Assembly (NCBI GenBank): GCA_016192145.1
Contig: JACPUT010000002.1
Span: 434,001-498,000 of the forward strand
Reading direction: 5' to 3'
Origin: Acidobacteriota bacterium
Lineage (GTDB): Bacteria > Acidobacteriota > Holophagae > Holophagales > Holophagaceae
DNA length: 64,000 bases
Shown here: one piece after another, positions 14,651 through 49,067 of the stretch
Layout: each line of letters starts with the position of its first letter
How positions within the stretch are numbered: the stretch's first letter is position 1
Program-made: the position numbers and the translations under genes
Notes under the pieces: model-generated
Databases searched by the model: none
Seen by the model: only the letters and a program-made list of their open reading frames with translations
What the model was told of the DNA's origin: nothing

Positions 14651-14826
14651 GGCCAACGGGGTTCCCTCCACGTCACCCGCTGCGGCTGCGCCTTCGCGCT
14701 TGACGTTCCGGCCGCAGGGCGACTAGGCGCGGGGCTGCGCTGCGCGCACCAGTTCGCACGCTCGCGCGTGCTCCACCTTCCCCAAGTCGCTGCCGATTCG
14801 AACCCCGTTGGCTCTGGGGTGGGTAC
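14651..14826. repeat. Structured repeat unit 1 with tRNA-Glu-like ends
   Basis: Unit of about 176 bp, near-copy of the unit at 14869-15055. It begins GGCCAACGGGGTTC and ends with GAACCCCGTTGGC, so its ends are 13-bp inverted repeats identical to the T-arm/acceptor part of the adjacent tRNA-Glu gene. Left of it, ACCTGGTA matches the bases that follow the tRNA-Glu 3' end. The interior is full of small hairpins (for example around 14755-14772). No protein is encoded. Confidence 0.8.
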
Positions 14827-14868: not shown

Positions 14869-15055
14869 GGCCAACGGGGTTCCCTCCACGTCACCCGCTG
14901 CGGCTTCGCCTCCGCGCCTGACGTTCCGGCCGCGGGGCGACTAGGCGCGGGGCTGCGCCTTCGGCGCACCGGCTACGCACGCTCTCGCGTGCTCCGCCTG
15001 CCCCTACCCGCCAAGTCGCTGCCGATTCGAACCCCGTTGGCCCTGGGGAGGGTAC
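14869..15055. repeat. Structured repeat unit 2 with tRNA-Glu-like ends
   Basis: Unit of about 187 bp, closely similar to unit 1 including the CGACTAGGCGCGGGGCTGCG core and the terminal GGGTAC. Its ends again copy the tRNA-Glu 3' region as inverted repeats. The interior can fold into hairpins such as GCACGCTCTCGCGTGC near 14978. It sits 39 bp from the tRNA-Glu gene on its 3' side. Confidence 0.8.
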
Positions 15056-15093: not shown

Positions 15094-15168
15094 TGGTAGG
15101 GCCAACGGGGTTCGAACCCGTGCTGCCGCCGTGAAAGGGCGGTGTCCTAACCACTAGACGATGGCCCC
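15094..15168 (-). tRNA. tRNA-Glu (anticodon TTC)
   Basis: 75-nt cloverleaf on the minus strand. Acceptor GGGGCCA pairs with TGGCCCT, the D-arm region is TCGTCTAGTGGTTAGGA, the anticodon arm CCGCC-CTTTCAC-GGCGG gives anticodon TTC, and the T-arm is ACGGG-TTCGAAC-CCCGT. The 3' CCA is encoded. It follows tRNA-Lys by 12 bp and is probably co-transcribed with it. Confidence 0.95.
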
Positions 15169-25977: not shown

Positions 25978-26445
25978 CTAGGCGCGTGAGGCAAGCTCCG
26001 CGAACTGGGATTGGAACGCCTCGAAGGAGGGCATGCCCGGCCGATCCGGGTGGGACTGCTCCCAGGCGTTCTGGAGGGGCTTCCAGCCCACGTGGGGGTA
26101 ATACCCCTCGGCCAGGGGGGAGGCGAGCAGCACCCAGCGGACCCGGGGAAACTCCGGGAAGAGCAGGGCCATGAGGGCCTTCCCCACGCCGGCCTTCTGG
26201 TACCCGGGATGCACGGCCAGATCGCAGACGTACCCGTCGAAGGCGCCATCCGTCCAGCCCCGCAGGAGCCCCACGAGGCGGGGCCCATCCCAGGCGCTGT
26301 GGATGACGTTGGCGCCGTCGAACATCTGCTTCAAGCGGGCGGCATCCCCGATGGGGCGCCGCAGCGGGGAGGCGGCGTAGAGGGCCTGGATGGCCTCCAG
26401 CCCAGGGCGTTCATGGGGGGCGATGCGGAAGGTGGGGGGGGTCAT
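25978..26445 (-). CDS. GNAT family N-acetyltransferase
   Basis: A 155-residue acetyl-CoA-dependent transferase. The CoA-binding motif is clear in VCDLAVHPGYQKAGVGKALM (Q/RxxGxG/A type), followed by WVLLASPLAEGYYPHVGW, the usual strand-5/helix segment of GNAT proteins. The substrate is unknown. Its start overlaps the stop of the upstream CMD gene by 4 bp (ATGA), so the two are co-translated. The pair sits in an operon divergent from the MocR regulator; similar MocR/CMD/GNAT groups occur in other bacteria. Confidence 0.85.
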   Translation of the reverse strand: MTPPTFRIAPHERPGLEAIQALYAASPLRRPIGDAARLKQMFDGANVIHSAWDGPRLVGLLRGWTDGAFDGYVCDLAVHPGYQKAGVGKALMALLFPEFPRVRWVLLASPLAEGYYPHVGWKPLQNAWEQSHPDRPGMPSFEAFQSQFAELASRA

Positions 26446-26897
26446 GAACGCACCTCGAAGGCGGGGAGTTCGGGCAGGAAGGCGACACCCAGGCGGTTCC
26501 AGGTGTTCATGAGGGTGATGACGTGGGTGAGATCCACCAGGGCCTTCTCCTCGAAGTGAGCGCGGGTGGCGGTGACCAGCTCCGGGGAAAGGGCGTGGTG
26601 GCCCAGCACCGTGAGGGCCTCGGCCCAGGCGAAGGCGGCGCGCTCGCGCGGGGTGAAGCAGGGGGCGTCGCGCCAGGCGGCCACCAGGGCCAGGCGGCGG
26701 GGATCCTCGCCATCCTTCAGGGCCTCGGTGCCGTGCATGTCCAGGCAGTAGGCGCAGCCGTTCAGCTGGGAAACGCGCATTTCCACCAAGTGCAGCAGGC
26801 TGGGCTCCAGGCCGCAGGCCCGGGTGTAGCGGTACATCTGCAGGAGGATCTGGTAGGGCTCCGGGGCGAGCTCGGGATGGGGCTTGGTGAGGCGCAT
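26442..26897 (-). CDS. Carboxymuconolactone decarboxylase (AhpD-like) family protein
   Basis: A 151-residue all-helical protein with the AhpD-type CxxC centre and trailing histidine in NGCAYCLDMHGTEA. Related proteins act as peroxidase partners or lactone decarboxylases; the CxxC version suggests thiol redox activity. The tail VDLTHVITLMNTWNRLGV is typical of the family. ATG at 26897 has GGAG eight bases upstream. It overlaps the GNAT gene by 4 bp and lies downstream of a truncated cupin in what appears to be one MocR-controlled operon. Confidence 0.9.
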   Translation of the reverse strand: MRLTKPHPELAPEPYQILLQMYRYTRACGLEPSLLHLVEMRVSQLNGCAYCLDMHGTEALKDGEDPRRLALVAAWRDAPCFTPRERAAFAWAEALTVLGHHALSPELVTATRAHFEEKALVDLTHVITLMNTWNRLGVAFLPELPAFEVRS

Positions 26898-26993
26898 GGG
26901 GGCTCCGGGTGGAGGGGATCAGGCCGTGCGGGCGCGGAGGCCCAAGTGTAGGGCGCCGGGGGCCGGGCTGAAGACGGAGTGGTCCAAGGGGGA

Positions 26994-27146
26994 TTAGATC
27001 CCCTGAGAGAGGGCCATGGCGACCCTGGACAGGGTGGTCGGCGCGGCGTTGTCGGGAAGGTAGGCCAGGGGCTTGAAGGCGAGGCCGGGCTTCAGGGGAA
27101 CCCAGGGCAACCGGGCGGTGTCGATGGCGCTGGGGGAGAGGGGCAT
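26994..27146 (-). pseudogene. Truncated cupin (ChrR/dihydroxyacetophenone dioxygenase-like) N-terminus
   Basis: A 50-codon frame starting at ATG 27146 with GGAG six bases upstream. It reads IDTARLPWVPLKPGLAFKP then LAYLPDN, which resembles the N-terminus of ChrR-like cupins, but stops at 26994 after an unrelated tail (SRVAMALSQGI). The metal-binding His residues of the cupin barrel are absent. The intact start signal and placement at the head of the operon, divergent from mocR, suggest that the cupin was lost by deletion while the promoter was kept for the CMD-GNAT genes. It could still be translated as a short peptide. Confidence 0.5.
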
Positions 27147-27183
27147 GAACACTCCAGGGGAAGTGCCCAGGATCCGGCGAAAA

Positions 27184-27226
27184 TGGTCTATTCAAAAGAT
27201 CCATTTTTTAAAATTTTGATAGACCA
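27184..27226. promoter_or_regulatory. Likely MocR operator: AT-rich inverted repeat
   Basis: TGGTCTATTCAAAA and TTTTGATAGACCA face each other in the gap between mocR and the divergent remnant-cupin/CMD/GNAT operon, complementary except for one extra T. The stretch 27184-27226 is far more AT-rich than its surroundings, as expected of a promoter/operator. Confidence 0.65.
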
Positions 27227-42488: not shown

Positions 42489-43844
42489 CTACCTCGGCAG
42501 CATCGCCGGGAGGGCGGCCACCTTCCACCCCAGCCAGGCCATGACGACCGCACATTGCTGGAGTTCGGCGGGATCCACCTTGTCCAGGGTGTCTCCCGCG
42601 GAGTGGTGGTCCCGGGCATAGGTGTGCTGCTTCTGCTCCAGGCAGAAGGCGGGCACACCGGCTTCATGGAAGGGGATGTGGTCGGTGCCCGTCTCCATTC
42701 TCAAATCCGTGTCGACGACGCCGAGGGGCCTCAGGGGCTTCACGAGGGCCAGCATGGTGGCTTGCACCTTGCGGCGGCCCTGGAGGGCGATGCCATCCAC
42801 GGCCCCCGCGCCGGTATCCATGATGAACACGGCGCTAACCTTCCCCAGGTCCCTGCGATTCTGATTAACGTGCGCGTAGGCGCCCAGGTACCCCTGCTCC
42901 TCCGCCCCGAAGAGCACGAAGCGGACGGTGCGCCGGGGAGGGCGCTTCAGGCCCACGAGCAGTCGGGCGGCTTCCATCACGGCGGACACGCCGGCGCCGT
43001 TGTCCATGGCCCCGGTGGCGAGATCCCAGGAGTCGAGGTGGGCACCGAGGATCACCAGCTCATCGGCCTTCTCGCCACCCCGCAGCTCGGCGACGGTGTT
43101 GAAGGTGCGGCCGGGCGGGCCGAAGGCGCCGCCGAGCAGGAGCTCCAGCTCGGCGCCCCGGGCGGCGGCCTCCACCAATCCGATGTACTCGGCGTGGGGG
43201 ACGTAGGCCACGGGCAGCTCCGGTCCCCTCGCACGGAGGGCGTCGCCGTCCATGTTCAGGGCCTCACCGCTCTTGCCCGCATCCATCAGGACCGCCAAGG
43301 CCCCCGCCTGGGCGAGGGCTGGCAGGGTTCGGCCCGCGGGGAACTCGGGGGGGTGGGCCTGCGGGGCCTGCTTCATGCGCAGGGGGGGCCTCATCTGGGG
43401 GGGATCCAGCGCTTGGACGGGTTCGCCGCCGAGCACGATGCGGCCCTTGAAGGGGGAGAGGTCGCCCTGGGCTTGCGCGATGGGCAGCAGGGCCAGGGGG
43501 GCCTTCAGCCGGCCCGGCGTTCCAGGCGTCCAGGCCACCTGCGCCACGCGGAAGGGGCGATCTCCCAGGCGGGCTTCTTCGCGCCCCCGAGCCCAGGTAC
43601 GGGCCATGGGGATCTCCTCGGTGCGCACGGTGAGCCCCAGGGCCTTGAACCGCGCCGAGGCCCAGGCGTGGGCGGCCGCATCCTGCGGGCTGCCGGCCAG
43701 GCGGGGGCCGATCTCCCCGGTGAGGGCCTGGAGCGTTTCAAAGGCGCCCCGTTGATCCGTGGCCTTCAGGAGGTCCTTCGGATGGCTGGCGACCAGGAGG
43801 GCGCCGGCGAGGAGCGGGTAGAGAAGGGCCCTGACGTTACGCAT
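42489..43844 (-). CDS. M28 family zinc aminopeptidase/carboxypeptidase, exported
   Basis: A 451-residue protein with a signal peptide (VRALLYPLLAGALLVASH). The M28 co-catalytic metal site is intact: AHLDSWD (His and Asp), MDNGAG (bridging Asp), FGAEEQG (catalytic and metal Glu), MDTGAG (Asp) and DHHS near the C-terminus (His). A PA-like insert of about 130 residues separates the propart (EIGPRLAGSPQD) from the catalytic core, as in Q-type carboxypeptidases. ATG at 43844 lies inside the end of the upstream epimerase gene (8-bp overlap), so the two are coupled. Confidence 0.92.
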   Translation of the reverse strand: MRNVRALLYPLLAGALLVASHPKDLLKATDQRGAFETLQALTGEIGPRLAGSPQDAAAHAWASARFKALGLTVRTEEIPMARTWARGREEARLGDRPFRVAQVAWTPGTPGRLKAPLALLPIAQAQGDLSPFKGRIVLGGEPVQALDPPQMRPPLRMKQAPQAHPPEFPAGRTLPALAQAGALAVLMDAGKSGEALNMDGDALRARGPELPVAYVPHAEYIGLVEAAARGAELELLLGGAFGPPGRTFNTVAELRGGEKADELVILGAHLDSWDLATGAMDNGAGVSAVMEAARLLVGLKRPPRRTVRFVLFGAEEQGYLGAYAHVNQNRRDLGKVSAVFIMDTGAGAVDGIALQGRRKVQATMLALVKPLRPLGVVDTDLRMETGTDHIPFHEAGVPAFCLEQKQHTYARDHHSAGDTLDKVDPAELQQCAVVMAWLGWKVAALPAMLPR

Positions 43845-44295
43845 GATGGCTGGCGTGGTTATGGGCCTCTGCGATCTCGAGATCGGACTCATACCCCCCC
43901 TGGCTCAGCTCCACGAGCATCCCACCCGTCTCCGCGGGATGGATGAAGGCCACCCGGCACCCGTGCGCGCCCCGGCGCGGCTGGGTGTCCACCATGCGCA
44001 CCCCCTTGGCCATGAGTTCCGCCACCGCGCCATCGATGTCATCCACCTCGAAGCAGACGTGGTGGATGCCGGGGCCCCTCTTCGCGAGGAACTTGCCGAT
44101 GGGCCCTTCGGGATCCGTGGTCTCCAGCCACTCCAGGCGGCTCTCCCCCACGGGGTAGAAGGCGGTGTTCACCTTCTGCTCGGGCACGGCCTCCCGGTGT
44201 TCGGGCTCCATGCCGAAGAGGCGGCGCATGCGATCCATGGCCTCCTCCAATCCGGGGGCGGCGATGCCGAGGTGGTTGATGCGCAGGAGCTTCAT
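43837..44295 (-). CDS. mce: Methylmalonyl-CoA epimerase
   Basis: A 152-residue glyoxalase/VOC-fold enzyme converting (S)- to (R)-methylmalonyl-CoA, needed for propionate or odd-chain fatty acid use through methylmalonyl-CoA mutase. Metal ligands are visible in RINHLGIAA (His), GPGIHHVCFEVDD (His) and MLVELSQ (Glu). The phrase ESRLEWLETTDPEGPIGKFL is typical of the family. No mutase or propionyl-CoA carboxylase gene is in the window. The C-terminal His-rich tail (HNHASHHA) is unusual and overlaps the start of the M28 peptidase gene. Confidence 0.88.
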   Translation of the reverse strand: MKLLRINHLGIAAPGLEEAMDRMRRLFGMEPEHREAVPEQKVNTAFYPVGESRLEWLETTDPEGPIGKFLAKRGPGIHHVCFEVDDIDGAVAELMAKGVRMVDTQPRRGAHGCRVAFIHPAETGGMLVELSQGGYESDLEIAEAHNHASHHA

Positions 44296-44394: not shown

Positions 44395-46431
44395 CTAGAA
44401 CCGCCAGGTGAAATCCAGGCTCACCCGCCGGTCGTGGGCGGGCAGGGGCGCGTGGGCTCCGTAATAGGGCTGGAGCAGGGGGTAGCTGGAATTGGCGAGG
44501 TTGGTGATCGATAGCCTCAGATCCTGGCCGGTTCGGTAGACGGCACGCCAGGTGAGGGCGAGGTTGACAAGCACCTTGGCGGGGTAGTGGTCCGTCTGGA
44601 CCAGATTCGGCATGAGGGAATCCGGTGGAACGGAAGACTGGGCCGACGCGGCGTTCTGGTTCTCCCGGGCCGAGGCGTAGAATAGGCTGGGCGCGATATC
44701 CACGGGGCCGAACCGGTGGTTGAAACCCAGGTTGGCCTTCCACGGCGAGACGCCCAGGGGCTTGGAGCGATCGGGCGTGAGGAAGAAGGGATCCGAGCCC
44801 CCACCCGGCTTCGCGTAGCTGAAATTGAAGAAGCCGCTCCAGGCTTCCAGGTTCCACTCCAGGGTGCCTTCCACGCCCCGGGTGCGGTCGGCGCCGAAGT
44901 TGAGGATGTAGAAATTGTAGTTGTCGAGGCCGAAGGAGATGGCCTCGGTGACATCCATCTTGAAGAAGTTCAACCGGCCGATGATGCTCGGCGTGAAGCG
45001 GTATCCTAGCTCCAGCTCCCAGCTCTTGATGACCTCGGGCTCCAGGTAGCCCCGGAACGCGAAGAAGGTGCTGTAGGTCTGGAACAGGGTGGGAGATCGG
45101 AAGGCCTGGCCGTAGAGCAGCTTCGCGTTGAAGGGGCCCGCCGTCGCGGTGACGCCCAACCTCGGCGCGAACACCCCTCCCAGCTCCGCCTCCTCGTAGC
45201 GTCCCCCCAGGATGAACCCCACGGGGCCGGTCTGTTGGGTGTACTGGAAATAGCCGAAGCGCGTGGTCCAAGTGACCTGGGCCAGGCGCCGGGTGGGGTC
45301 GGAAGGATCCCGCATGCCCCCCTGGCCCTGGAGATCCACGCTGCGCTCCCAATCCTGGTACGCGCCCAATCCGAACAGGAACGTGGCGTTCCAGGGTGCA
45401 TCCCAATGGAGGTTCACGTCGGCCTGATGCCGTTCCCGCTCCGTGCCCGAGTGATTCACCCCGCTGCCGGTGCGGGCCTGGGGGAAGATGGCGCCCCCCG
45501 TGTTTTTCGTCAGCTCCACCCGGGGTTCCAGCGTGAGGCCGTCGACCAAGGTGAAGGGGTGGGCGATCTGAACCGCTTGCACATTCCGGGAACCGCTGCC
45601 GATGAGACCCGGCGGCAGGCCCGGCGGAATGGGGTCATGGATGCCTTCACCGCTGTTATCCACCTGGGCGCCGCGGAATTCATGGCGTACGAAGTGGATG
45701 GAGGTTCCGAGGGCCTTGAGGTCCCCCACCAGGTACTGGGTTTCCCGCCGCGTGTTCCCCTTTTCCTGGGGGCTCACGGATCCCGTGAAGAAGGTGTCCA
45801 CGTAGGGTTGGCGGCTGAAGGGGCTGGTCTGGTAGCCGACGTTCAAAGCGAGGCTGCCCTCTTGGGGGAACCGGGCCGCGGCGGTGAGGTAGCCGCCCCC
45901 CGCGTGGGTCCCCGCGCCCAAGGTATCGCCCCGAAGGGTGAATCGCCCCCCCTCGCCGTCGTCCACCTGGTGCGTGATCACGTTGATCACGGCCATGCCT
46001 GCGAATTGGCCGTACATGGCGGAGCCCGGGCCCCGGATCACCTCCACCCGCTCGATCATCTCCGAGGGGTAGCTTCCGTAGTAGTTGGCGTTGGCGTTGT
46101 GGAGGGGGCTCACGCAGATGCCATCCACCATCAGGAGGGCCTTGCCTTCGTGGGCCCAGATCCCCCGGGCGCTCAACCCCGTGAGCACGCCGCCGTCATT
46201 GGCGAAGTCGAAGCCGGGCAGGGCCCGCAGGATATCGGCCAATTCCCGCCAGCCGTAGCGTTCGATATCCGTCCGCGTGATCACGGAGACCACCGAGGGG
46301 GCCTCCTCCTGGCTCTGCTCCAGCCGCGTGGCGATGCTCACCTTGATGGCCCGCAGTTCCTGGAGATCCGGGATCTCCTGGGCCGCGAGGGCCAGGCTGA
46401 ACAGCGGGAGCAGCGTAAGTCGGATGGGCAT
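44395..46431 (-). CDS. TonB-dependent outer-membrane receptor
   Basis: A 678-residue outer-membrane active transporter. A signal peptide (MPIRLTLLPLFSLALAAQ) precedes a plug domain (about 35-150) with VVSVITRTDIERYGWRELAD, GLSARGIWAHEGKALLMVDG and IERVEVIRGPGSAMYGQFA. A 22-strand barrel ends in Phe (VSLDFTWRF). The substrate cannot be read; close neighbours give no clue. ATG at 46431 lacks a good ribosome binding site, and the frame stays open upstream. Its promoter region contains one copy of the 22-bp direct repeat (46510-46531), so the WD40 insertion changed the upstream context of this gene. Confidence 0.9.
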   Translation of the reverse strand: MPIRLTLLPLFSLALAAQEIPDLQELRAIKVSIATRLEQSQEEAPSVVSVITRTDIERYGWRELADILRALPGFDFANDGGVLTGLSARGIWAHEGKALLMVDGICVSPLHNANANYYGSYPSEMIERVEVIRGPGSAMYGQFAGMAVINVITHQVDDGEGGRFTLRGDTLGAGTHAGGGYLTAAARFPQEGSLALNVGYQTSPFSRQPYVDTFFTGSVSPQEKGNTRRETQYLVGDLKALGTSIHFVRHEFRGAQVDNSGEGIHDPIPPGLPPGLIGSGSRNVQAVQIAHPFTLVDGLTLEPRVELTKNTGGAIFPQARTGSGVNHSGTERERHQADVNLHWDAPWNATFLFGLGAYQDWERSVDLQGQGGMRDPSDPTRRLAQVTWTTRFGYFQYTQQTGPVGFILGGRYEEAELGGVFAPRLGVTATAGPFNAKLLYGQAFRSPTLFQTYSTFFAFRGYLEPEVIKSWELELGYRFTPSIIGRLNFFKMDVTEAISFGLDNYNFYILNFGADRTRGVEGTLEWNLEAWSGFFNFSYAKPGGGSDPFFLTPDRSKPLGVSPWKANLGFNHRFGPVDIAPSLFYASARENQNAASAQSSVPPDSLMPNLVQTDHYPAKVLVNLALTWRAVYRTGQDLRLSITNLANSSYPLLQPYYGAHAPLPAHDRRVSLDFTWRF

Positions 46432-46509
46432 GGAGGGGAGCGGGCGACAGGGACTCCTCGGGACCCCGGGCCCCGGTGGTGAATCCGGGCGCTGCCGTGT
46501 CAGGCTTCT

Positions 46510-46531
46510 GGCATGGATCCCCGAACCCCCG
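46510..46531. repeat. 22-bp direct repeat, copy 1
   Basis: Identical to positions 48480-48501 (begins GGCATGGATCCCC). The copies bracket the WD40 gene. The second copy contains the start codon and first codons of the methyltransferase gene, so this first copy looks like a duplicate of that start. Confidence 0.85.
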
Positions 46532-46537
46532 TGAGGG

Positions 46538-48415
46538 TCAGCATCCGGCTTCAAAACCTGCACCACTGATCCGGACTTTGCCATCCGGGGTGCCGCTACG
46601 CTGATCCACATGGGGATCCCGGCGCATGGGGAACCGGTCGGCCTCGGGCCCGGAAAAGGATTCAAGCTCTGGGCCGGACTTGATCAGGCTCCCTTTGGTG
46701 ATATCCCACAGTGCCCCCCAGACGGACTCCTCCCCTCCGTCATTCCAGCCGGCGGACCACCACAGCTGTGATCCATCCACGGAAAATGCCAGCAGCCCTG
46801 CTGCGAAAGGTGCATAGGTGACCTGGTATTCCACCTCCCCTTCCTTCTGAGTGGCGGGAGCCGGCGCCACCGGAGAGGGTAGGTGAGCGGTGGCCTCCAG
46901 GGTTTGCGAATCCAAGATGGTCACCCCAGTCGGATCGAGCATGGCCATTCGGGATCCATCGGCCGAGAACGCGATTTGCCGATCGGAAGCGGGGCGTTGG
47001 GGCAGGGTGCGGAACAGCTCACCGGTAGACGCGTCAAAAACCTTGAGGCCTCCAGGGGTGGGTAGCAGCAGCCAGGGGCGGGTGGGATGGAAGCGGAAAT
47101 GGGAATAGCCCTCGTTTAGAGGCGAGGGAATCCGGCGGACTGAGGCACCCTTGCTGACCTCCCAGATCCGCAGATCGGTACCCTTTTGCTCGCGGCTGGC
47201 GATCCAAGTGCCATCACCGGAAATGCGCACGGTCTCAAGTGGGGCCCGGTGTCCTTCCAAGGTCTGGATCAATCGATGCGAATGGGCATCCCATATCTTG
47301 ATGAGCCAATCCTGGCCGCCAGAGGCGATCCAGAGCCCTCCTGGATCTAAGTCGACGGACTCGACCCCGCCGAGGTGACCTTGCCATTCCGCTTTCTCGC
47401 GACCGCTTTCGAGGATGAGTTGGCCCAAGGGCGCAACGCCTGGTTCCGGAGGGCTCGAGGGGAGAATCATCGTCCGTGCATCTGAGGTGATGGCCACCTG
47501 CGCGGTACTGGCATAGGTATCCACGATGGCTGCGACTTTGGGGGCCGCAAGGTCCAGGACTTCCAAGGTGGAGTTGAAGGCTGAGCTCTCTCCGGACCGC
47601 AGGAGCCAGCGCCGATCGGGGGATCCATGGGGTAGGTTGTACGCGGATTCAAGGCTCCGGTTCACCCAGCCGGCCCAGGCATGATCGGCAGGGGTCAGGG
47701 CGGAGCCCGAAGAACCGCTGAGCTGGGCAGCGGAAATCCGTCCCATCGCTTTCCCGCTCGGGGCGGACCAGGATTGAACCCCTTTGAGATCGATGAGCGC
47801 CAGGAGCTTGCCATCTCCGAGCCAAGATAGGGTGGACTCGTCAGGTATTGGCATGACCGCCGTCTTGAACAACGCCTGCCCGGACTGGAGATAGCGGGCT
47901 TCCACGGAACCGCGATTCACACCTTCATTGCTCTGGCCCGCGATCCACCCCTCCTTGGGGTTGATTGCGAGAGGGGCATGGAGGTTGGGCAACGTTCGAA
48001 TCAAGTTTCCTTGGCTCACTGAGCGGACCTGAACATCCACGCCCTTGCCGCTGGTGACGATGAGATCCGATCCGCCCCAGGCCAAGGCGGTGGGCGCCTT
48101 CGCCAGGTCGAATCGGCGCAAGAGGTTGCACCTGGGGAAATCCCAGATGAGGATCCAGGCACCTTTCGATTTGGCGGCCGATGGGGAACTTAGGGTGGCC
48201 AGTTGATGGCCATCCGGCGAGAGGGCAAGCGCCTGGAGCTGCCCCGGCACCTTCAGGAAAGGCTTGGAAACATTGGAGGCGAGGTCCCGGATCTCCAGCT
48301 CGGTCTGGTTCGCATCGACAGGCAGCCCTTTGGGGGCCAGGCCGCCTTTCAGGGCCAGGGCTGCGGCGCCCGCAATGAGCAGGGCTGCGGCAATCCAAAT
48401 CCAGGCTCGTTTCAT
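46538..48415 (-). CDS. WD40-repeat protein with N-terminal membrane anchor
   Basis: A 625-residue protein. MKRAWIWIAAALLIAGAAAL is a single membrane anchor or uncleaved signal. The remainder forms beta-propeller blades: the clearest are GHLGGVESVDLDPGGLWIAS with IKIWDAH and GHRAPLETVRISGDGTWIAS with LRIWEVS; earlier and later blades are degenerate (LQALALSPDGHQLATL, RQIAFSADGSRMAML). No enzyme domain is present. Third codon positions look less G/C-rich than in neighbours (by eye). The gene is bracketed by a 22-bp direct repeat, which suggests insertion. ATG at 48415 has GAGG nearby. Probably a scaffold or binding protein facing the periplasm. Confidence 0.75.
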   Translation of the reverse strand: MKRAWIWIAAALLIAGAAALALKGGLAPKGLPVDANQTELEIRDLASNVSKPFLKVPGQLQALALSPDGHQLATLSSPSAAKSKGAWILIWDFPRCNLLRRFDLAKAPTALAWGGSDLIVTSGKGVDVQVRSVSQGNLIRTLPNLHAPLAINPKEGWIAGQSNEGVNRGSVEARYLQSGQALFKTAVMPIPDESTLSWLGDGKLLALIDLKGVQSWSAPSGKAMGRISAAQLSGSSGSALTPADHAWAGWVNRSLESAYNLPHGSPDRRWLLRSGESSAFNSTLEVLDLAAPKVAAIVDTYASTAQVAITSDARTMILPSSPPEPGVAPLGQLILESGREKAEWQGHLGGVESVDLDPGGLWIASGGQDWLIKIWDAHSHRLIQTLEGHRAPLETVRISGDGTWIASREQKGTDLRIWEVSKGASVRRIPSPLNEGYSHFRFHPTRPWLLLPTPGGLKVFDASTGELFRTLPQRPASDRQIAFSADGSRMAMLDPTGVTILDSQTLEATAHLPSPVAPAPATQKEGEVEYQVTYAPFAAGLLAFSVDGSQLWWSAGWNDGGEESVWGALWDITKGSLIKSGPELESFSGPEADRFPMRRDPHVDQRSGTPDGKVRISGAGFEAGC

Positions 48416-48479
48416 AATGGCATCCTCAGCTATATGGCCATTATCCCCGAAGCAACCCGTCACTTCCCGACACAATGGG

Positions 48480-48501
48480 GGCATGGATCCCCGAACCCCC
48501 G
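48480..48501. repeat. 22-bp direct repeat, copy 2
   Basis: Second copy of the repeat at 46510-46531. It includes ATG 48483 and encodes the first residues (MDPRTP) of the methyltransferase, so this is probably the ancestral location. Confidence 0.85.
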
Positions 48502-49067
48502 AGTACTGGCAGCAGGTCTACGACACCGAGGCCCGGCCCGGCTGGGACATGGATGCGCCCACGCCCCTGCTGGCGGAGCTGCTCGATCTCGCGGGGCTGG
48601 CGGCCGGGGCCCGTGTGGCCGTGCCGGGGTGCGGCTTCGGCCACGATGCGGCGGAGCTCGCGCGGCAGGGCTTCCGGGTGACCGCCTTCGATTTCGCGCC
48701 GGCGGCCCTGGCGGGGGCCCGCGCCCGGTATGGAACCGCCGTTGATTGGCGACAGGAGGACTGGTTCACCACGGAAGCCGGCCCCTTCGATGCCGTCTTC
48801 GACCACACCTGCTTCGTGGCCATGGAACCCGGGCGCCGCGAGGCCTACGTGGCTCGCACCGGGGAGCTGCTGAAGCCCCGCGGCCGTTGGCTGCTGGCCG
48901 CCTTCCACGACGTGCAGGATCGGCCGGGGCCGCCCTTCGCGGTGCCCATGGAAGACCTCCGCCGCCTGGCGGAAGCCCGGTTCGAAATCCTGCATCTGGC
49001 CGAGGCCACGCGCAGCCATCCCCGGCGTGCGGGGCGGGAGATGCTGCTGGTGGGGCGGACCCGCTGA
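48483..49067 (+). CDS. SAM-dependent methyltransferase, TPMT-like
   Basis: A 194-residue class I methyltransferase resembling thiopurine S-methyltransferase and thiol/halide methyltransferases. Motif I is VAVPGCGFGHDAAELA with the typical PGCG in place of GCG, motif II is VTAFDFAPAAL and VFDHTCFVAM marks the active-site side. The N-terminal PEYWQQVYDT and GWDMDAPTPLL are typical of the family. The start codon lies in the 22-bp direct repeat that is duplicated beyond the WD40 gene. The native substrate is unknown; a small thiol or selenium/arsenic compound is possible. Confidence 0.88.
   Translation: MDPRTPEYWQQVYDTEARPGWDMDAPTPLLAELLDLAGLAAGARVAVPGCGFGHDAAELARQGFRVTAFDFAPAALAGARARYGTAVDWRQEDWFTTEAGPFDAVFDHTCFVAMEPGRREAYVARTGELLKPRGRWLLAAFHDVQDRPGPPFAVPMEDLRRLAEARFEILHLAEATRSHPRRAGREMLLVGRTR

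Follow-up and report, generated by a model that had tools for sequence, protein, structure and literature searches.

How a single gene came to lie between two exact copies of its neighbour's start is the question raised by a locus in a genome of the Holophagaceae (Acidobacteriota). We studied this locus within a stretch of 64,000 nucleotides, hereafter the window (positions 434,001 to 498,000 of JACPUT010000002.1, assembly GCA_016192145.1), which was placed in contig C1 of an assembly of 3.80 Mb and 19 contigs. The 22-bp sequence GGCATGGATCCCCGAACCCCCG occurs at 46510..46531 and at 48480..48501, on the forward strand, as an exact direct repeat with a copy-to-copy spacing of 1970 bp; identity, coordinates and spacing are exactly those that a sequence-only reading of the locus had reported. 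The left copy, which duplicates the start of a methyltransferase gene, lies upstream of a TonB-dependent receptor gene. The right copy consists of GGC, the ATG of the methyltransferase, five more of its codons and one base. The sequence-only reading had correctly put this start codon inside the right copy, but it counted one codon too many in adding the first six codons, given that the methyltransferase starts at 48483. Bracketed by the repeat is one gene, encoding a WD40 protein (46538..48415, reverse strand), whose stop codon is 6 bp from the left copy. The unique segment between the copies (46532..48479, 1948 bp), a putative insert with dissimilar ends, matches one place in its own genome.

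The repeat is confined to these two positions. With up to three mismatches allowed, it matched nothing beyond both copies in the 3.8-Mb assembly, and the control pattern, read backwards, gave one match in the same genome. Frequent occurrence elsewhere in the genome, which had been named as evidence against an insertion, is thus not observed. When 136 bp spanning the left copy served as a probe, the right copy was the one match other than the probe itself, over exactly 22 bp. Outside the repeat, 8/40 and 7/40 positions agree, so that the surrounding sequences are unrelated and the pair does not belong to any more extended homology. On a random-sequence model, 0.0014 such repeats are expected in the window, and 9e-5 if the copies must lie within 2 kb of each other, which, together with the unrelated flanks, argues against a chance match. 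Such a model undercounts repeats in the window, where nine exact repeats of at least 20 bp were observed versus 0.018 expected. We read the other eight as repeats of obvious kinds: three appear to fall in a two-copy element beside a tRNA-Glu gene, one in a 7-bp array, and the remaining four at a near-constant offset of 36.6–36.8 kb that looks like the product of paralogous genes. The segment is also far from the ends of its 622,816-bp contig, which argues against an assembly error, and we regard chance or misassembly as extremely unlikely.

Comparison with relatives indicates which copy is the original. The methyltransferase is TPMT-like, with an intact frame (48483..49067, forward strand; PF05724, E 1.1e-28), and its closest relatives are in the Holophagaceae, where 64 of the 77 family genomes gave matches at E 0.001, some of them weak. 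In two related loci of genus g6 (L009 and L057), the methyltransferase start reads ATGGATCCC..CCCGAGTACTGGCAGCA, the same as the right copy and the bases that follow it. The best matches to the right junction among 172 loci likewise begin within the right copy, at its last 4 bases, and continue into the methyltransferase of L007/L055 (26 bp at 96%) and of L009/L057. Since the start aligns with relatives and the junction matches continue into the gene, the 22 bp belong to the methyltransferase and the left copy is the duplicate, as had been proposed from the sequence. The repeat is therefore a direct repeat of target sequence that bounds the insert on both sides.

We also compared the sequences upstream of the start. 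Methyltransferase relatives (L007–L035 and L055–L094) carry a conserved motif with the consensus TATCCTGG, followed by 4 nt and the ATG; of the 67 sequences compared, 40 are distinct. We take the motif to be a -10-like box, so near the ATG that a leaderless transcript is possible. The motif is not clear in the window at 48467-48482. The left flank scored 4.3 and the right flank 1.5, and the members averaged 10.9 (range -3.5 to 18.3). Both flanks outscore all but 0.2% (left) and 0.5% (right) of the window's 1534 ATGs, and the motif profile does not decide which of the two is ancestral.

The putative insert encodes a 625-aa beta-propeller protein with a hydrophobic N-terminus. Fifteen Pfam families match it, all of them WD40/propeller models, and PF00400 alone passes its cut-off (50.4 bits, cut-off 27). 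No transposase domain was found by Pfam in this protein, the one ORF of the insert that the search covered, in line with the earlier remark that no transposase is present, and neither NCBIfam nor PADLOC gave a match to it. A structure prediction without alignment reached a mean pLDDT of 37.8 and was set aside. The less GC-biased codon use that had been noticed by inspection was borne out by measurement: GC3 is 0.71 for the WD40 gene (0.65–0.75 in windows along its whole length) versus 0.87–0.94 in the eight neighbouring genes measured. Within the window's list of ORFs, one has a lower value (25981-27204, 0.66) and may be spurious; the next above the WD40 gene stands at 0.81.

No donor of the WD40 gene emerged from overlapping sets of 77 genomes of the family, 93 of the class and 396 of the phylum, in which every match other than the gene itself was a partial propeller match. 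Seven family genomes (own included) matched the protein at E 0.001, and besides the protein itself these were partial propeller matches of at most 36%; the same-genus genome, which is 76% complete, gave no match. At 1e-15, two class genomes matched, again including its own, and at 1e-12 there were 18 matches in the phylum set, own included, with a top identity of 49% over 82 residues. Among plasmids, 91 records matched, all below 60%, and the ten listed are 21.9–26.4% identical. Three records cover at least 80% of the protein, so that long but very distant relatives do exist.

Local alignments and short-match searches of the junctions bear on the possibility that the segment is a non-autonomous transposon or the remnant of an insertion sequence with long target duplications, as in the IS1202 group or some IS481 members. 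These duplications can indeed be long; the available excerpt of PMC10045372 gives 5–6, 15–17 and 24–29 bp for the IS1202 group and about 15 bp for some IS481 members, but 22 bp falls outside these ranges. The ends of the insert show no similarity, inverted or direct, above shuffled sequences, and its terminal bases read TG...GG rather than TG...CA. Six local alignments covered inverted ends, flank similarity and a remnant on the side of the methylmalonyl-CoA epimerase gene discussed below, and in each of them 95 to 263 of 300 shuffles reached the observed score. The segment is single-copy in the genome and its protein, matching propeller models only, has no DDE transposase, although a non-autonomous element would lack one too. 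When three junction stretches were compared by blastn-short with the window and 172 loci, no match among those listed was better than E 0.02, once self matches, the 22-bp pair and the methyltransferase starts of L007/L055 and L009/L057 were set aside. On this evidence, a transposon origin is very unlikely.

The neighbourhood in relatives shows that more than the WD40 gene is extra in the window. We compared 110 loci with a methyltransferase match at 1e-8, the window's own place left out; many genomes are represented twice and many flanks are short. In 10 of these, a gene for methylmalonyl-CoA epimerase (MCE) lies head to head with the methyltransferase gene, the matches being 24–132 bp apart. 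Judged by identical junction sequence, the 10 loci represent five genomes, one of them of the same genus. The same-genus genome (76% complete) keeps the window's gene order of aminopeptidase, MCE and methyltransferase; its MCE and methyltransferase matches are 24 bp apart, and its contig ends about 50 bp past the methyltransferase. In the window, the MCE gene (43837..44295, reverse strand; TIGR03081, 144.8 bits, cut-off 114.95) is separated from the methyltransferase by about 4.2 kb more than in the five relatives, comprising the TonB-dependent receptor gene (44395..46431, reverse strand; PF07715 plug domain) and the WD40 gene. Neither of these was found in any of the 110 loci at E 1e-8, many of them with short flanks. 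Because relatives have MCE beside the methyltransferase, the receptor and the WD40 gene are both additions in the window, which would take a minimum of two steps or else a single composite event. The five relatives are about 62–69% identical in the methyltransferase, so that their sites do not lend themselves to a base-by-base comparison with this one.

These data also bear on the expected ancestral state. From the sequence, relatives had been predicted to carry the TonB receptor adjacent to the methyltransferase with a single copy of the 22 bp; this arrangement was seen in none of the 110 loci, and it is MCE that adjoins the methyltransferase in five relatives. The absence of that empty site among the 110 loci counts against a simple insertion. 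It leaves room for a composite rearrangement, in which the receptor and the WD40 gene would have been acquired jointly or through several joins, with the left copy as a short templated patch from the methyltransferase start. A short templated copy at one join would yield the same sequence, and both genes are missing at the MCE–methyltransferase junction of the five relatives. Relatives of the receptor also lie elsewhere: at 1e-60 they occur in 10 of the 77 genomes (own included; 52–62% identical, two of them in two pieces), and the eight receptor-relative stretches that were opened contained no match to the methyltransferase or MCE. However, the receptor has a GC3 of 0.88, which corresponds to native codon use, and the contrast with 0.71 for the WD40 gene suggests different histories; moreover, the methyltransferase start is not repeated on the MCE side above shuffles, so no second remnant of the target was found there. 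Taken together, we consider a composite origin possible but rather doubtful.

We favour illegitimate insertion with a 22-bp target duplication, to which we assign a probability of roughly 0.6. Provided that the receptor preceded it, a single insertion of the WD40 segment is the simplest way to account for the repeat. By this account, a 1.95-kb segment carrying the WD40 gene would have been inserted at the methyltransferase start by illegitimate recombination, beside the TonB receptor gene, itself an earlier arrival between MCE and the methyltransferase. The target strands would have been broken or copied 22 nt apart, leaving the methyltransferase start duplicated on both sides and the gene whole behind the insert; copying of the start would thus have preserved the complete methyltransferase frame. 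One event probably made both copies, the receptor probably preceded the WD40 insert, and the mechanism may have been a staggered break or a template switch. Of the earlier interpretation, the foreign-looking gene with a target duplication still stands as the best explanation, while the predicted ancestral neighbourhood of receptor and methyltransferase was not observed among the loci compared.

We found no Ku gene in either of the two genomes of the genus (98% and 76% complete), with a search whose control matched Bacillus subtilis alone among 14 known genomes. Classical end joining is therefore unlikely, and we infer that the mechanism was probably either Ku-independent repair of a staggered break or a template switch at replication. 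The same final structure could be produced by homologous recombination at the methyltransferase with a circular DNA that bore both the WD40 gene and the 22 bp, a circle model having been drawn for transposed Arabidopsis genes in the excerpted text of PMC2869330. Such a circle must, however, already carry 22 bp of the methyltransferase, and this length is below the 30-bp RecA threshold for E. coli that is cited in part of PMC2884548. Integration of a circle is accordingly very improbable.

Insertion with a target duplication of this length has known parallels. By definition, insertion with long target duplication includes no transposase in the insert. It was named for Helicobacter pylori (Nobusato et al., 2000) and is described, in the excerpts of PMC1643837, PMC4978471 and PMC3154945 that cite this work, as a form of gene mobility distinct from the short duplications of transposons. 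As in the Helicobacter cases, a gene unit is flanked here by a direct repeat of target sequence; according to the same excerpts, those cases are frequently restriction-modification genes, whereas here there is one WD40 gene and no empty-site strain for comparison. A second parallel comes from part of PMC2884548, in which many small variable segments are put down to illegitimate recombination and 10–18% of variable segments have flanking repeats of at least 5 bp, most of them under 30 bp. The short flanking direct repeats and their attribution are alike, but that text stresses segments of 20–500 bp between strains of one species and deletions between repeats, whereas we compare different species, and the insert here measures 1.95 kb. 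Given the named Helicobacter parallel, the repeats in PMC2884548 and IS1202 lengths that do not include 22, the WD40 insert is plausibly a further example of insertion with long target duplication.

We also surveyed 49 sources (566,328 bases: the window, the 40 loci L055–L094 and 8 receptor loci) for recurrence. Fourteen exact repeats of at least 18 bp were found at 0.4–6 kb, and among these, before any annotation, the 22-bp pair was the one case recognised as a copied gene start. The lack of a second recognised case in 566 kb counts against a recurrent transposase-free route in the Holophagaceae, by which single foreign genes would be dropped at gene starts with target duplications of about 22 bp and the target gene left intact, and we hold such a route to be highly improbable. 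The value of the locus is that of one example. Most likely the scar of an old insertion, it can still be read as the capture of a gene with no recognised mobile element, a change of an ordinary kind for bacterial genomes; learning the mechanism would take a collection of such scars.

Several minor features of the locus deserve mention. Between the receptor start and the left repeat copy (46432..46509) there is, by eye, a CGGGATTC..CCCGG-like segment as in Geothrix receptor leaders. A hairpin-like segment, CGGGATTCA..CCCGG, is likewise common by eye to the receptor leaders of the window and of Geothrix-like relatives (L161, L168), and had no Rfam match. Because the receptor's best NCBIfam match, below cut-off, is a B12 receptor and its leader carries GCCAGAAGCCTGAC, which we took to be a cobalamin riboswitch motif, we considered whether the left junction cuts through such a riboswitch. 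This was rejected, as Rfam showed no riboswitch in this stretch of the window and gave no match in nine receptor-relative loci.

The methyltransferase matches positions 267–425 of the 492 of mad2 (PADLOC, E 8e-21), which probably reflects a shared methyltransferase fold. In three places, the methyltransferase matches as two segments whose query ranges overlap (L094 6001-6846, G009 C1:1459957-1460802 and G034 C1:56401-57249), as if part had been duplicated or something inserted; those in G009 and G034 fall within one open frame, and L094 may equal one of them. In L059 (5871/7741) and L075 (6092/7957), an exact repeat of 18–20 bp, of low complexity, links the methyltransferase gene with a site about 1.87 kb downstream. 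The window also holds a GC-rich element in duplicate, at 14651-14812 and 14869-15042; its copies are 87% alike and bounded by GGCCAACGGGGTT ... AACCCCGTTGGC. The ends of this element match the 3' end of the adjacent tRNA-Glu gene (15094-15168); only these two copies were matched in its own genome, and the same-genus genome has a match to a piece of 34 bp.
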